Position numbers and translations under genes: made by a program
Part shown: positions 4,441 to 23,248 of the stretch, piece by piece
Position numbering within the stretch: position 1 is the stretch's first letter
How the letters are laid out: every line of letters begins with the position of its first letter
Source of the DNA: Rikenellaceae bacterium
Lineage (GTDB): Bacteria; Bacteroidota; Bacteroidia; Bacteroidales; Rikenellaceae
Direction of reading: 5' to 3'
Assembly: GCA_015059945.1 (NCBI GenBank)
Contig: SUZJ01000002.1
Location: forward strand, 1-64,000
Length of the DNA: 64,000 bases
The notes under the pieces: generated by a model
What the model was told of the DNA's origin: nothing
The model's database searches: none
Seen by the model: the letters and a program-made list of their open reading frames with translations, nothing else

Positions 4441-5508
4441 ATGATGAAAACGAAGATTTATGCCGTAGTGGCCGCAGTGGCTGCTCTGATGATGGTTGGC
4501 TGCGCAGGTGGCCCCAAAACCTATACCGTCAAAGGTACCATAGCCGGCTACGAGGGTAGTGTGGCTCTGGCCAACGAGGCCTCGGGCGATATCTATGTTA
4601 CCGCACCCGTGGCCGAGGATGGCTCGTTTGAGATTAGGCTCGAGTCCGAAACACCTATGCTCACAGTGCTTGTGGTTGGTGGTCAGAGCGTTATGCCCAT
4701 ATTCTTGGAGTCTACCGAGCCCGTAGTCGTAGAGGGACAGGCCGACCAGTTGGGCTTTCTCACCGCCAAGGGTGGCGAGTCGAACAACGCCTTTGATGAC
4801 TATATCAGCGCCTACAACGCTCTGGTCAAAGAGCTCGAAGGGGCCAAGTCGCAACACGACTACTACGAGTTCCAAGAGAATGCTATGAAGCTACTCAACG
4901 ACTCCTACGAGCAGAACAAAACCAACCTCTGGGGTGCCTACCTGCTCGTTATGGGGCGCCATACCACAATGAGCAATACCGAGGTGCTTGAAGCCATAGA
5001 GGCCTTCCCCAAGAAGTTCCAGAGCCTGCCCGAGCTGGTAGACCTCACCGCTACGGTCAAGGCTATGATGCGCACCGACATCGGCCAGCCCTACACCGAG
5101 ATTACTATGGTCGACTACAATGGCCGTATGATAAAATTGAGTGATGTGGTAAAAAAGAGCCGCTACGTGCTTATCGACTTCTGGGCCTCGTGGTGCAACC
5201 CCTGTATGAAAGAGATGCCCTACCTGCACGAAGCCTACGCCAAATATCACCCTATGGGCTTCGAGATCTATGCCGTAAATCTCGACGACGGCCGCCAACC
5301 CTGGGTTGAGGCTATCCAGAAGGCGGGCGGTATGCCCTGGAAACACGTCGGCACCCAGGGCGGCTGGGAGAGCGATGCCACTACCAACTATAACGTCAAG
5401 TCAATCCCCACCAACTACCTGATCGACTGCAAAACAGGCCTTATCATCGACCACAACCTGCGTGGCACCGAGGTCGAAGAGGCTCTGGCCAAACTCTACG
5501 CCGAGTAG
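4441..5508 (+). CDS. TlpA-like thioredoxin-fold lipoprotein
   Basis: This 355-residue protein has a lipoprotein signal peptide with lipobox VGC (Cys21), an N-terminal region resembling DUF4369 (about 25-120), a helical middle, and a C-terminal thioredoxin fold. The redox motif FWASWCNPCMKEMPYL places the CxxC cysteines at residues 252 and 255. Such proteins act outside the cytoplasm as thiol-disulfide reductases or in extracytoplasmic redox upkeep; the substrate is unknown. The first two codons are both ATG, so the start may be 4441 or 4444. It probably shares a transcript with ruvC and ends at the terminator at 5562. Confidence 0.85.
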   Translation: MMKTKIYAVVAAVAALMMVGCAGGPKTYTVKGTIAGYEGSVALANEASGDIYVTAPVAEDGSFEIRLESETPMLTVLVVGGQSVMPIFLESTEPVVVEGQADQLGFLTAKGGESNNAFDDYISAYNALVKELEGAKSQHDYYEFQENAMKLLNDSYEQNKTNLWGAYLLVMGRHTTMSNTEVLEAIEAFPKKFQSLPELVDLTATVKAMMRTDIGQPYTEITMVDYNGRMIKLSDVVKKSRYVLIDFWASWCNPCMKEMPYLHEAYAKYHPMGFEIYAVNLDDGRQPWVEAIQKAGGMPWKHVGTQGGWESDATTNYNVKSIPTNYLIDCKTGLIIDHNLRGTEVEEALAKLYAE

Positions 5509-7106: not shown

Positions 7107-7114
7107 TATCTTTG
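7107..7114 (+). promoter_or_regulatory. Promoter -7 element for the first peptide/lipoprotein cassette
   Basis: TATCTTTG is a full match to TAnnTTTG, 77 bases before the peptide start. T/G-rich sequence with several TTTG words lies 15-30 bases upstream, but none has the ideal spacing. Confidence 0.6.
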
Positions 7115-7191
7115 TAGATATTGGCGTTTGGCCCAATGGCGAAACTAACAAAAACAAATAATTACTAAACAAACAAAAAACTTTTAACGGA

Positions 7192-7329
7192 ATGAAAAAA
7201 ACTTACACAACTCCCTCAGTAGACCTTTACGAGGTAGAGGTCGAGGCAGGTATTGCTGCGAGCACACAGCAGGCAATGGTTGATGAGATTTGGCTCGAAG
7301 AGGCCAACGACGGCAATCCCATTTGGTAA
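7192..7329 (+). CDS. 45-residue MKKTY-type peptide, cassette 1
   Basis: This short gene (ATG 7192, TAA 7327-7329) begins MKKTYTTPSVDLYEVEVEAG, continues with IAAST and ends in NPIW. It has no hydrophobic signal segment and is strongly acidic. A second peptide at 22,962-23,090 (minus) shares MKKTY, a proline at position 8, an E-x-G-I-A-x-S-T block in the middle, an acidic tail and a terminal tryptophan. Both lie 39-44 bases upstream of related lipoprotein genes, and both have their own TATCTTTG promoter. The function is unknown. Conservation of two diverged copies in the same arrangement argues that the gene is real. Confidence 0.75.
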   Translation: MKKTYTTPSVDLYEVEVEAGIAASTQQAMVDEIWLEEANDGNPIW

Positions 7330-7368
7330 TCCAAAAGTTTAACAAAAGCAATCAAAGAGAAAACAATT

Positions 7369-8706
7369 ATGAAGAAGATTTTTTATTATTTGATGAGTGC
7401 TGTTGTTGCTTTTGGCGCAATGGCTTGTCAGAACGATGTTGAAGAGAATGTAACCCCTGGTGAGGGTGGCAATGGCGAGAAGGTGTCGTTTGTTGCCGAG
7501 GTTGGCGATGTGACCCGCGTGTCTATTGGCGATAAAGAAGGTAGCAAATATCGTATTACCCTTGATGAAAATGATGTACTGATCGCAAGAACTTATGACC
7601 AAGGAGAGTGGGGCGATCCCTATACTTTCACCACTACCGACGGTAAGAATTTCTCGTGCGAGACTCCTGGCGTTAGTGAGTTGATTGGCAAAGAGGTGAC
7701 GATAAACAATCGTGCTGTTACTTCATTTTGTAGCCTTTGTGGCGTAGATGGCTTTCAACTCCGTGCAAATGTTGCTTCTTTTGGTGATAACTCTAATATC
7801 ACCCTTGAGGTAGCAAATGCTGTTCTGATGTTTGAGTCGGAGTATGATGTTACTTTCAACTCTACTGGGGAATTATTTAGCTATGATTCGGAGTGTGGGT
7901 TGTTGAATAATCCAGCAAATAACGTGAATTCGCTCAAAATTCCTGCATCGGAGGGTGTACACTACGTTGCTGTAAATGGTGGTATTCCAACCACCTTCTC
8001 GTACTCGATTGATGACGTTATGTGCAAAGAGATTACCACCACCTTCGAGGCTGGCAAACTCTACAACCTCGGCACCCTCGGCAAACTCAACACCGAGTGG
8101 GAACTTATGGGTGGCTGGGAAGGCTCAGAATGGACCACCAAGTTCTTGTATAACGAGGGTTACAACAATATCTTCGTTGCTCGAAATGTGAATGTGACAG
8201 CAGATTCGGAGTTCTTGATTCGTTTGTATCAGTCGTGGGATGACAAAGTGGCTTTGTATGAGGGTTCATCTGCAGCTGTCGATTATTGGTATGATGCTAA
8301 AAAGAACTCAGAGGATGGCAAGTTTAATACTAACATCGGCATTGCTAAGGGTGTGTATGACATCTGGTTTGACCAGCAGACTTATAGCTTTGTGATTGCA
8401 ACAAAAGGCAAAACTCCCGCATTTTATAGCGTGATAGGTACCATAAATAATGGCAACTGGGATAAAGATAATGATATGGTATTGGAGGATGGTTGGTTTG
8501 TTGCAACTGTTGATGCTAAGGCCAATAACGAGTTTAAGATTCGTAAATGCCACACATGGGATATGACTCACGGTTATGGAGATTGGTTCGAGGCTGGTAA
8601 AGAATTGGTAAGCGATAATGGTGGAAACTTTAAGATTGCTGCTGAAGGTAAATATAAAATCAGCATGAAGAAAGATACATCTAAAATCAAAATAGAGAAA
8701 CTCTAA
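7369..8706 (+). CDS. Fimbrillin/SusE-like surface lipoprotein, cassette 1
   Basis: The 445-residue product starts with a lipoprotein signal peptide and lipobox AMAC (Cys20). The acidic stretch QNDVEEN directly after the cysteine resembles surface-export signals of Bacteroidetes lipoproteins. The N-terminal third contains DVTRVSIGD-type segments seen in fimbrillin-like proteins. The C-terminal ~200 residues resemble SusE/SusF carbohydrate-binding modules, ending in a domain (VIGTINNGNWDKD...EFKIRKCHTW...YKISMKK) that also ends the paralogue at 21,628-22,917. It likely sits on the cell surface and binds glycan, but no SusC/SusD pair is adjacent. A strong terminator follows. Confidence 0.78.
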   Translation: MKKIFYYLMSAVVAFGAMACQNDVEENVTPGEGGNGEKVSFVAEVGDVTRVSIGDKEGSKYRITLDENDVLIARTYDQGEWGDPYTFTTTDGKNFSCETPGVSELIGKEVTINNRAVTSFCSLCGVDGFQLRANVASFGDNSNITLEVANAVLMFESEYDVTFNSTGELFSYDSECGLLNNPANNVNSLKIPASEGVHYVAVNGGIPTTFSYSIDDVMCKEITTTFEAGKLYNLGTLGKLNTEWELMGGWEGSEWTTKFLYNEGYNNIFVARNVNVTADSEFLIRLYQSWDDKVALYEGSSAAVDYWYDAKKNSEDGKFNTNIGIAKGVYDIWFDQQTYSFVIATKGKTPAFYSVIGTINNGNWDKDNDMVLEDGWFVATVDAKANNEFKIRKCHTWDMTHGYGDWFEAGKELVSDNGGNFKIAAEGKYKISMKKDTSKIKIEKL

Positions 8707-8735
8707 ACAACAGATTGTTGCGAGTTGTAACAAAG

Positions 8736-8771
8736 AAGAGTGGCACCCGAAACTGGTCGGGTGCCACTCTT
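8736..8771. terminator. Intrinsic terminator after the cassette 1 lipoprotein
   Basis: A perfect 15-bp stem (AAGAGTGGCACCCGA with its complement) closes an AACTGG loop and is followed on the plus strand by TGTTTTTAG. Confidence 0.92.
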
Positions 8772-21627: not shown

Positions 21628-22917
21628 CTAGATTTTCTCAATCTTAGTCGATGAGAAGGTCTTGTTGATAGAGATTTTGTAGGTACCTGCTGCCTTGATT
21701 TGGAAGTTGCCATCGCTACCTTCCTGAATGAGGTTGCCACCTGCAGAAATCCAACCAACGCTAGTGCCATATCCGTGGGCATTGCCCCAATCGGCATATT
21801 TACGAATCTTGTACTGGTCATTAGCCGCTACGGTTACGATTGCCTCAAACCAATCACCATTCAAGTACATAGGAACATCGGTTCTCCAAGCTGAGCCCTC
21901 AAAGCTACCAATAAGACCTACGAATGTCAAGTTGTCTTGTTTGGTCTTTGAGATAAAGCACCTGTTGTCAGCGGTATAGTAGCAGTAATAAGTGCCAACT
22001 TCTGCTATTATCATATTGCTTCCACTTGTGCTAAGCGAAGACCATGAATCAAGAGTGTAAGTGCCTCCATACCAGTTGCCTCCATTGTTGAACTTAATTT
22101 CTGTATTCTTTGTGGTTGTCTTAATCTTAGCATAAGAAATCAAGTTGCCTGCATCGTACATAGTTACGCCATCACCCCAGCTATCAAAACTGCCCTTAAC
22201 TATCGGGCCAGTTGCAGCACCCAGATAACCCAAGTTGAAAATCTTGAAACCCCAATTACCATTTACCTTGGCATCGAGAGTAGCTTCTTTAACAGTTTCA
22301 TCGTTAATCTTATACGAAACATTGATTTCGCTTGCATAAGCGTTTTCAAGATTTATCCAATACTCGCCATTTGCGGGCAGTACGAGCGACTCGGGAGCAA
22401 TATCATCCCCCCCATCGTAGTAATCGCAGTAGAGAGTTACAGCGTCGGCACCGGTAGTGCAGTGGATAACGTAGTTGCTGAGCGAAAGGGTAACATCACC
22501 ATCGATCTTATTCTGGAACTTGAAATATGCAGCCTCGCCAAATGTATCGTACCTCCAGCTAGCTACTTGCAAGTCATCTCCTGTTTTGTTGGTGATGGTA
22601 ACAGAATAGTTGTTGACAATCTCCGAAAGACCCTCGCCCTCGCCGGTGAAGGTGTAGGGATTCTCAGGGGTGTTGGTGAACTCGAATATATTCATATTAT
22701 AATCCAAGTAGAGAGTCTCGTTGCCCTCGAATACAAAGCTGGCCTCGCCATTCTCTACGCCACCCAATGCGATACGGGTGTTGTCGTCAAACGATACGGT
22801 GAACGAAACTACATCGTTCTGAGTGCCGGGGGTGATGTTCTCATCAACCTCGTTCTGGCAAGCTACTGCGCCCAAAGCTACAATAGCACTTGCGATAAAA
22901 TAAAAAATCTTTTTCAT
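21628..22917 (-). CDS. Fimbrillin/SusE-like surface lipoprotein, cassette 2
   Basis: The 429-residue lipoprotein is a paralogue of 7,369-8,706. Their signal peptides match closely (MKKIFYFIASAIVALGAVAC, Cys20) and continue QNEVDENITPG against QNDVEENVTPG; the acidic residues suggest surface export. The N-terminal half contains DDNTRIALGG, a fimbrillin-like segment. The C-terminal domain (LIGSFEGSAW...YKIRKYADWGNAHGYG...TYKISINK) is the same SusE/SusF-like module that closes cassette 1. The middle regions differ. It starts 44 bases after the peptide gene, has its own terminator, and the cassette lies between inverted hairpin elements. Confidence 0.78.
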   Translation of the reverse strand: MKKIFYFIASAIVALGAVACQNEVDENITPGTQNDVVSFTVSFDDNTRIALGGVENGEASFVFEGNETLYLDYNMNIFEFTNTPENPYTFTGEGEGLSEIVNNYSVTITNKTGDDLQVASWRYDTFGEAAYFKFQNKIDGDVTLSLSNYVIHCTTGADAVTLYCDYYDGGDDIAPESLVLPANGEYWINLENAYASEINVSYKINDETVKEATLDAKVNGNWGFKIFNLGYLGAATGPIVKGSFDSWGDGVTMYDAGNLISYAKIKTTTKNTEIKFNNGGNWYGGTYTLDSWSSLSTSGSNMIIAEVGTYYCYYTADNRCFISKTKQDNLTFVGLIGSFEGSAWRTDVPMYLNGDWFEAIVTVAANDQYKIRKYADWGNAHGYGTSVGWISAGGNLIQEGSDGNFQIKAAGTYKISINKTFSSTKIEKI

Positions 22918-22961: not shown

Positions 22962-23090
22962 CTACCAGTCTACGTCCTCGTAAGCGGCGTTACGGAGTCC
23001 GAAGGTTGCACTCTCGGTGCTCATTGCGATGCCCTGCTCGATAGCTACCTCTACGAGCTCGATTGTGGGCTGATTGTAAGTTTTTTTCAT
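22962..23090 (-). CDS. 42-residue MKKTY-type peptide, cassette 2
   Basis: The gene (ATG at 23,088-23,090, TAG at 22,962) encodes MKKTYNQPTIELVEVAIEQG, then IAMSTES, and ends EDVDW. Compared with the 45-residue peptide at 7,192 it keeps MKKTY, Pro8, the (V/I)E-x-GIA-x-ST block, an acidic tail and the terminal Trp. There is no signal sequence. Its 5' leader contains the right-hand copy of the hairpin element, and a well-spaced promoter lies at 23,217-23,248. The function is unknown. Possibilities include a leader or regulatory peptide or a precursor of a modified peptide, but no maturation enzyme is adjacent. Confidence 0.72.
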   Translation of the reverse strand: MKKTYNQPTIELVEVAIEQGIAMSTESATFGLRNAAYEDVDW

Positions 23091-23216: not shown

Positions 23217-23248
23217 CAAAGATATACCAATTTTATTATACAGACAAA
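23217..23248 (-). promoter_or_regulatory. Promoter of cassette 2
   Basis: On the minus strand TTTG (23,245-23,248) and TATCTTTG (23,217-23,224) are separated by 20 bases, a textbook Bacteroidetes -33/-7 pair. Confidence 0.72.

Follow-up and report, generated by a model that had tools for sequence, protein, structure and literature searches.

Short peptide genes before surface lipoprotein genes in a Rikenellaceae bacterium as candidate precursors for a distant PqqD-containing gene cluster

The 64-kb stretch of Rikenellaceae DNA that was analysed here (the window) contains a gene of only 45 codons directly in front of the gene for a surface lipoprotein, which raises the question of what such a small product contributes. 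We found that the peptide belongs to a family that is selected at the protein level, is linked to lipoprotein genes and co-occurs with a gene cluster located elsewhere in the genome. The reading that we favour, and consider reasonably probable, is that of a RiPP-like precursor with an RRE-guided leader, which would be served in trans by this central cluster and probably phosphorylated and exported, with one peptide for each surface lipoprotein. That the peptide binds the RRE, is phosphorylated, cleaved and exported, or makes contact with the lipoprotein is in each case a prediction from sequence.

Two peptide-lipoprotein units and their family

Unit 1 starts with TATCTTTG, a promoter motif of the Bacteroidetes -7 type that was read from the sequence (7107..7114, plus strand, as are all parts of this unit). 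The peptide gene (peptide gene 1; 7192..7329), identified as an ORF and by the E-values of its family, is the proposed precursor gene. Its first 24 residues (7192..7263) contain the conserved block YxxPxV...ExGIAxS and would form the leader, which is predicted to end at a putative cut, and residues 25-45 (7264..7326) would form an acidic core without Lys or Arg and with a C-terminal Trp. The following ORF (7369..8706) encodes lipoprotein 1 of 445 aa, with the lipobox Cys at position 20 that is invariant in relatives, and a terminator-like hairpin of 15 pairs (8736..8771) closes the unit. The scan that detected this hairpin gave two hits in the unit 1 region, which are both strands of one hairpin, and shuffled sequences led to an expectation of 1.4.

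Unit 2 is located on the minus strand at 21.6-23.2 kb, with a TATCTTTG promoter motif (23217..23224, read from the sequence), a proposed precursor gene of 42 codons (peptide gene 2; 22962..23090, ORF and family match) and an ORF for lipoprotein 2 of 429 aa, also with lipobox Cys20 (21628..22917). The two peptides are identical in 16 of 28 aligned residues, and the lipoproteins show 29% identity over their full length, with the greatest similarity in the signal peptide and towards the C-terminal end. The first-pass annotation had described this layout of promoter, 45-codon gene, lipoprotein gene and terminator, its repetition with a diverged peptide, and lipoproteins that are alike at both ends and differ in the middle, and each of these elements was located in the sequence. 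Its label of fimbrillin/SusE-like had to be dropped, as neither window lipoprotein matched the Pfam families of fimbrillin (Mfa_like_1, PF13149) or SusE/SusF (PF16411) at E <= 1. An AlphaFold2 model of the peptide (mean pLDDT 71, pTM 0.22) contained no strand and one short helix, at residues 31-38, and no conclusion was based on it.

The arrangement had also been taken for a small family of two-gene units. It is indeed real, repeated and selected, but it extends beyond the two units, as seven members of the peptide family were found in this genome alone (1.81 Mb in 13 contigs). A family search of 60 genomes, including this one, gave 147 places in 27 genomes at E <= 0.01, an occurrence far above chance. 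At this threshold 22 of the 23 genomes of the same genus were peptide-positive, the exception being G003, together with 3/13 from other genera of the family and 2/24 from other families of the order. The 147 places were reduced to 115 non-redundant loci, which were examined; counts based on 112 members leave out L095, L032 and L116, which failed the motif pattern. In an order-wide sample, 11/295 genomes were peptide-positive at E <= 1e-4; seven of them fall outside the genus and come from seven different families. This sample provided 20 out-of-genus places, and the 16 with loci were examined. No family match was found when 96 peptides were compared with Pfam (E <= 0.001) and NCBIfam (E <= 0.01), and peptide 1 by itself showed a very weak match to lasso_cyano (E 0.11). 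A phage origin was also considered; 34 stretches of viral contigs fitted a pattern and none was confirmed as a relative.

Conserved Pro and Gly residues lie 12 residues apart in 109 of the 112 members and 13 apart in the other three. The YxxP motif is present in 109/112 members, with Ile as the family consensus at +2 of the Pro. Residue 24 is a Ser (98) or a Thr (14) in all 112 members, encoded by six different Ser codons and four different Thr codons, and four Gly codons occur at another position. The dN/dS was about 0.2, with 0.26 in the leader part as against 0.16 in the tail or core, based on 14 close pairs that are not independent, as some share members. Because of the synonymous codon variety at conserved residues and the dN/dS of about 0.2, we conclude from these sequence comparisons that the peptide itself is selected as a protein. 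Codon degeneracy at the conserved positions and dN/dS also rule out a chance ORF or a DNA repeat, and an RNA element was rejected, with no match to Rfam within the window at gathering scores.

The conserved block is N-terminal and lies away from the stop codon, and the C-terminal part is variable. Tails differ between units, yet a comparison of close copies shows them to be subject to purifying selection. After GIA the tail has a median length of 21 residues and is net negative in 112/112 members; Lys and Arg are absent from it in 83/112, and 36 members end with Trp. A conserved leader with a more variable core is characteristic of the precursors of RRE-dependent RiPPs, and the family fits this description.

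Linkage to genes for lipoproteins and other exported proteins

A lipoprotein-like start was detected within -30 to +130 nt downstream of the peptide gene in 108/112 members, compared to 15/164 after other ORFs of at least 200 aa and 83/4042 for randomly chosen positions in these loci. The enrichment of lipoprotein genes behind such peptides, which the first-pass annotation had suggested looking for, is hereby confirmed. The median intergenic distance is 22 nt. Since a TANNTTTG motif is enriched upstream of the peptide (within 160 nt in 43/109 members, where shuffles predict 6.4) and is rare inside the unit, that is in the peptide gene and the intergenic DNA (3/105), both genes probably belong to one transcript. 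Ten of the 115 loci had at first no downstream ORF, mostly because of the choice of start codon, and after re-examination four of 112 remained without a lipoprotein: L013 is solitary, L033 is located in G054, L036 lies at a contig end, and L051 is followed by a lipoprotein-like fragment with no clear start.

In the genome under study (G000), a surface lipoprotein gene follows six of the seven peptides. The seventh is the solitary member (L013/L196; G000:C3:100362-100475), after which no lipoprotein gene is found; the next ORF is on the other strand and encodes what we take to be a protein resembling a ribosome hibernation factor. Six of the seven strong lipoprotein matches in this genome carry a peptide, and the other one adjoins a peptide-lipoprotein unit. 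The six Mfa_like_1 matches of the genome had no peptide within the flanks examined. A lipoprotein gene of the same type without a peptide of its own was observed at L163:229-1971 (G000:C3), where it neighbours the unit at 5237-5368, and the ORF before it presumably encodes a protein that resembles a sialate O-acetylesterase.

Among the 69 complete downstream proteins 67 were aligned (L073 and L116 were left out). The lipobox Cys is invariant in these 67 proteins, which have an N-terminal pattern in common. Their Pfam domains are diverse, with Mfa_like_1 in seven, BACON in four, LRR_5 in three, DUF4465, Big_2, Big_3 and LPAM_1 in two each, SusF_SusE in one and others found once. The distances between cores and between lipoproteins were correlated (rho 0.12, permutation p 0.001, 106 units), but this correlation is weak, so that no support for coevolution of core and lipoprotein was drawn from it.

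Outside the genus, a lipoprotein gene follows 9/16 of the examined peptides. In their wider context, five of the other seven peptides instead come after a gene for an exported-looking protein (L212-L215), with gaps of about 20, 23, 159, 74 and 15 nt, and one further peptide runs off its contig. Of the five upstream genes, one encodes a C10 peptidase that carries a T9SS tail domain and one a PKD protein with a weak match to a T9SS tail; the others encode a GH97 protein, a repeat protein whose start is signal-like, and a lipoprotein-like protein that matched no Pfam family. In G054 (L212, L213) the peptides stand directly after the C10 peptidase, PKD and GH97 genes, which is the reverse of the order in the genus, and the third one, after the GH97 gene, also heads the PqqD cluster. 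The peptide of G184 also precedes a fimbrillin-like lipoprotein gene.

A central cluster that co-occurs with the peptides

The cluster in the genome under study encodes an ABC exporter without a C39 domain, a 151-aa S26-like protein, a PqqD protein (PF05402, RRE fold) and a 300-aa HprK-like protein. The PqqD gene, identified by its match to PF05402, is located outside the window (G000:C3:176147-176413). It is present as a single copy in 21/23 genomes of the genus; those without it are G003, which also lacks the peptide, and G009, which is 59% complete and has four peptides. The RRE gave a clear match to PF05402 (E 2e-13). The HprK-like protein matched the HprK-related kinase A family weakly (TIGR04352, E 4e-4) and the S26-like protein had an NCBIfam match at E 1e-7, and the RRE, kinase and peptidase proteins of the cluster were all below the NCBIfam cut-offs of the listed models. 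The His, P-loop Lys and Asp-Asp of the lasso kinases are present in 22/24 cluster kinase copies.

A profile search of 20 PqqD neighbourhoods from elsewhere in the order, some of which end at contig ends, detected HprK-like genes in 15 and S26-like genes in 12; ABC genes and a PF14907-type nucleotidyltransferase were each found in 11. G054 and eight neighbourhoods of the genus were considered separately, and no nucleotidyltransferase was found in these eight. A reduced cluster, in which adjacent PqqD and HprK-like genes lack a neighbouring S26-like or cluster ABC gene, is found in G016 (L253) and G007 (L254), which have one and three peptides, respectively. In G298 (L264, L289) the cluster PqqD gene has an in-frame TGA and is possibly a decayed copy. 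A YxxP ORF of 53 codons was observed in G062 (L302:9497-9658), 11 nt after a distant PqqD gene, and could encode the precursor for a different RRE system.

The cluster PqqD profile matched 33/295 genomes of the order at E <= 1e-5. PqqD was found in 10/11 peptide-positive and 23/284 peptide-negative genomes (Fisher p 8e-10), an association towards which the search is biased, because the query was built from peptide-positive genomes, namely five of the genus and G054. PqqD was present in 6/7 peptide-positive genomes when the genus was left out (p 4e-6) and in 5/6 when G054 was left out as well (p 3e-5). All nine genomes with the best PqqD scores (E <= 1.3e-24) were peptide-positive, five of which had supplied rows of the query. 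In G184, which is peptide-positive, no cluster PqqD was detected at E <= 1e-5, and the cluster PqqD is present in 23 genomes without a detected peptide.

Physical linkage was found in some genomes. One of the three peptides of G054 is located 38 nt before the HprK-like gene, which is followed by the S26-like, PqqD, nucleotidyltransferase and ABC genes. Together with the co-occurrence, this operon-like order corresponds to what is seen for precursors that co-occur or are encoded with an RRE protein. A peptide-lipoprotein unit lies next to the cluster's ABC gene in G001, and in G259 the distance between peptide and cluster is about 3.6 kb. No peptide is near the cluster in the genome under study, and of the eight clusters viewed in the genus, that of G001 alone is adjacent to a peptide. 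In G239 and G196, which belong to other families, YxxP peptides that contain ILGGS and LLTGS blocks, respectively, were detected by the profile with E 7e-5 and 7e-4 (L293:5792-5929 and L294:15384-15569). Their distances to PqqD/HprK/S26/nucleotidyltransferase/ABC clusters are about 2.3 and 5.7 kb. Similar short ORFs of the form MKK-x-Y-x-x-P with LL-A-x-S from Prevotella and Bacteroides are a lead in this context. YxxP peptides with an LL-x-S-like block may belong to the same system, which may then be widespread in the order.

Proposed maturation and comparison with known systems

In the proposed mechanism, residues 1 to about 21-24 would serve as the leader, in which the free-standing PqqD-type RRE would read Y5-x-x-P8-x-[I/V/L]10, and the remaining residues would form an acidic core that is poor in Lys and Arg and usually has an aromatic or aliphatic residue at its end. 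One cluster, with an ABC exporter, an S26-like peptidase, PqqD and an HprK-like kinase, would serve all seven dispersed precursors in trans. PqqD would hold the leader and present residue 24 to the kinase, which would probably phosphorylate the hydroxyl of this residue. The S26-like peptidase would trim the leader, perhaps cutting near Ala22-x-Ser24, and the exporter would move the acidic core out of the cell. Because the two genes are probably on one transcript, the adhesin-like protein and its peptide would appear together. The first-pass annotation had suggested that the peptide works with, regulates or is displayed by the lipoprotein; the two-gene unit stands, but because of the distant PqqD/HprK/S26/ABC cluster the peptide is most probably a leader-core precursor and not simply a regulator or partner by itself.

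Residue 24 could be the phosphosite or the residue before the cut, and both roles are possible. Lasso leaders carry YxxPxL at -17 to -12 as the motif recognised by the RRE, and the kinase BsfK phosphorylates Ser3, as stated in the available part of PMC10368454. The distance from Tyr to Ser/Thr24 is 19 residues in 109/112 members, the same as from Tyr(-17) to Ser3 in the lasso system. A cut after residue 24 would have Ala at -3 in 111/112 members and Ser or Thr at -1 in 112/112, all small residues. Signal-peptidase-like enzymes require small residues at -3 and -1. Since 13/106 cores lack both Ser and Thr, phosphorylation further into the core than residue 24 cannot be a general feature. In the ILGGS, LLTGS and L131 peptides the hydroxyl is found one residue further on, and the distance from Tyr to the hydroxyl is therefore an inexact ruler outside the genus. 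Of the lasso systems the available text of the sources further reports that PadeB1 binds the leader at nanomolar level, with the leader beside strand beta3 (PMC5067487), that single replacements of leader-motif residues had a limited effect on leader removal, and that the kinases have a His-Lys-Asp-Asp motif (PMC9266682).

The short ORF could instead be a cis-acting leader, the translation of which sets the expression of the lipoprotein by attenuation or translational coupling, with a product that has no further role. Its location between the promoter motif and the lipoprotein gene, with a median gap of 22 nt, and the few promoter motifs inside the unit (3/105) would suit such a leader. However, selection acts on the amino acids (six Ser, four Thr and four Gly codons; dN/dS of 0.26 and 0.16 for leader and core), the strongest conservation is N-terminal and not at the stop, L013 is solitary, the peptide can come after the exported-protein gene in order-level relatives, and no Rfam match was found in the window at gathering scores, which makes this explanation quite improbable. 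We also consider it unlikely that the peptide acts in the cytosol as a small chaperone or regulator of its lipoprotein and is unrelated to the PqqD cluster, the co-occurrence being the result of shared ancestry or lifestyle. The peptide-positive genomes outside the genus span seven families with PqqD in six of the seven, the cluster of G054 is headed by a peptide, and the RRE-type YxxPxL-like motif is conserved, whereas the tight linkage to the lipoprotein (108/112), the lack of a visible signal peptide in the peptide and the usual separation from the cluster would be expected of a chaperone or regulator.

The enzymes of the cluster also bring to mind phosphorylated lasso peptides of the paeninodin or Bsf type. 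An RRE, an HprK-like kinase, an ABC exporter and a YxxPxL-like leader recur in lasso clusters according to the accessible parts of PMC10368454, PMC9266682 and PMC7533575; the nucleotidyltransferase, which these sources also place in lasso clusters, is present in G054 and in 11/20 of the order neighbourhoods, and peptide 1 has its very weak lasso_cyano match (E 0.11). The leader motif itself fits, with YxxP in 109/112 members and Ile at +2 of the Pro. Nevertheless, the leader peptidase B2 (PF13471) was over the cut-off in none of the 23 genus genomes, with one weak match at E 0.003, and a scan of five cluster genes of G054 and four of G000 found no Asn-synthase-like cyclase. Because B2 is missing over the cut-off in all 23 genomes, the peptides are not lasso peptides by the test applied, and this reading is disfavoured as highly improbable. 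There is hardly any likelihood that the peptides are exported by a peptidase-containing ABC transporter of the C39, double-glycine type, since Peptidase_C39 was found in 1/23 genus genomes and a GG motif is missing from the conserved block, despite the division into a conserved N-terminal and a variable C-terminal part that such export would share.

The RRE-guided precursor with a central cluster thus remains the preferred reading, and it can tentatively be carried further. The peptides might represent a new Bacteroidales RiPP class without lasso cyclisation, of RRE-guided, kinase-modified and exported acidic peptides that are each loaded onto the adhesin-like lipoprotein of the same operon, a proposal that we regard as possible and still doubtful. 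If true, the peptide would be, for example, a ligand, a cap or a complementing strand of the lipoprotein, and one maturation cluster would supply companion phosphopeptides to the whole surface-protein repertoire. A class of tiny genes without a Pfam or NCBIfam match would thereby also gain a role. The open-access literature that was searched, a scope that excludes supplementary catalogues of small proteins, contains in its available parts no described system of this form. In the accessible version of the Bacteroidales RiPP survey PMC10352776, 'PqqD' appears in the reference list only, and 'signal peptidase', 'lipoprotein' and 'nucleotidyltransferase' are absent from the main text.

Compared with known families, the RRE of the cluster matches PqqD (PF05402) clearly and the kinase matches HprK-related kinase A (TIGR04352) weakly, with the NCBIfam cut-offs missed, and 7/67 downstream lipoproteins match the Type V fimbrillins (Mfa_like_1, PF13149), whereas the two window lipoproteins do not. 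Prochlorosin-type RiPP systems have one maturation machinery for many dispersed precursors, as is proposed here, but with different enzymes, and we know of no prochlorosin-type precursors that are paired with surface protein genes. The phosphorylated lasso clusters of paeninodin, pseudomycoidin and Bsf, as far as they are described in the available parts of the sources, share the free-standing PqqD-type RRE, the HprK-like kinase with His-Lys-Asp-Asp, the ABC exporter, the YxxPxL-like leader and, in some clusters, the nucleotidyltransferase. Unlike these, the system described here has no B2 over the cut-off in the genus and no cyclase among the cluster genes scanned, and has instead an S26-like peptidase, many precursors per genome and a pairing with surface lipoprotein genes. 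By analogy, it resembles the tailoring half of the phosphorylated lasso pathways. If the proposal is true, lasso-type tailoring enzymes (RRE, HprK-like kinase, nucleotidyltransferase) would be tied to the surface lipoprotein repertoire of gut Bacteroidales, a connection that is absent from the available text of the papers searched and would be new here.
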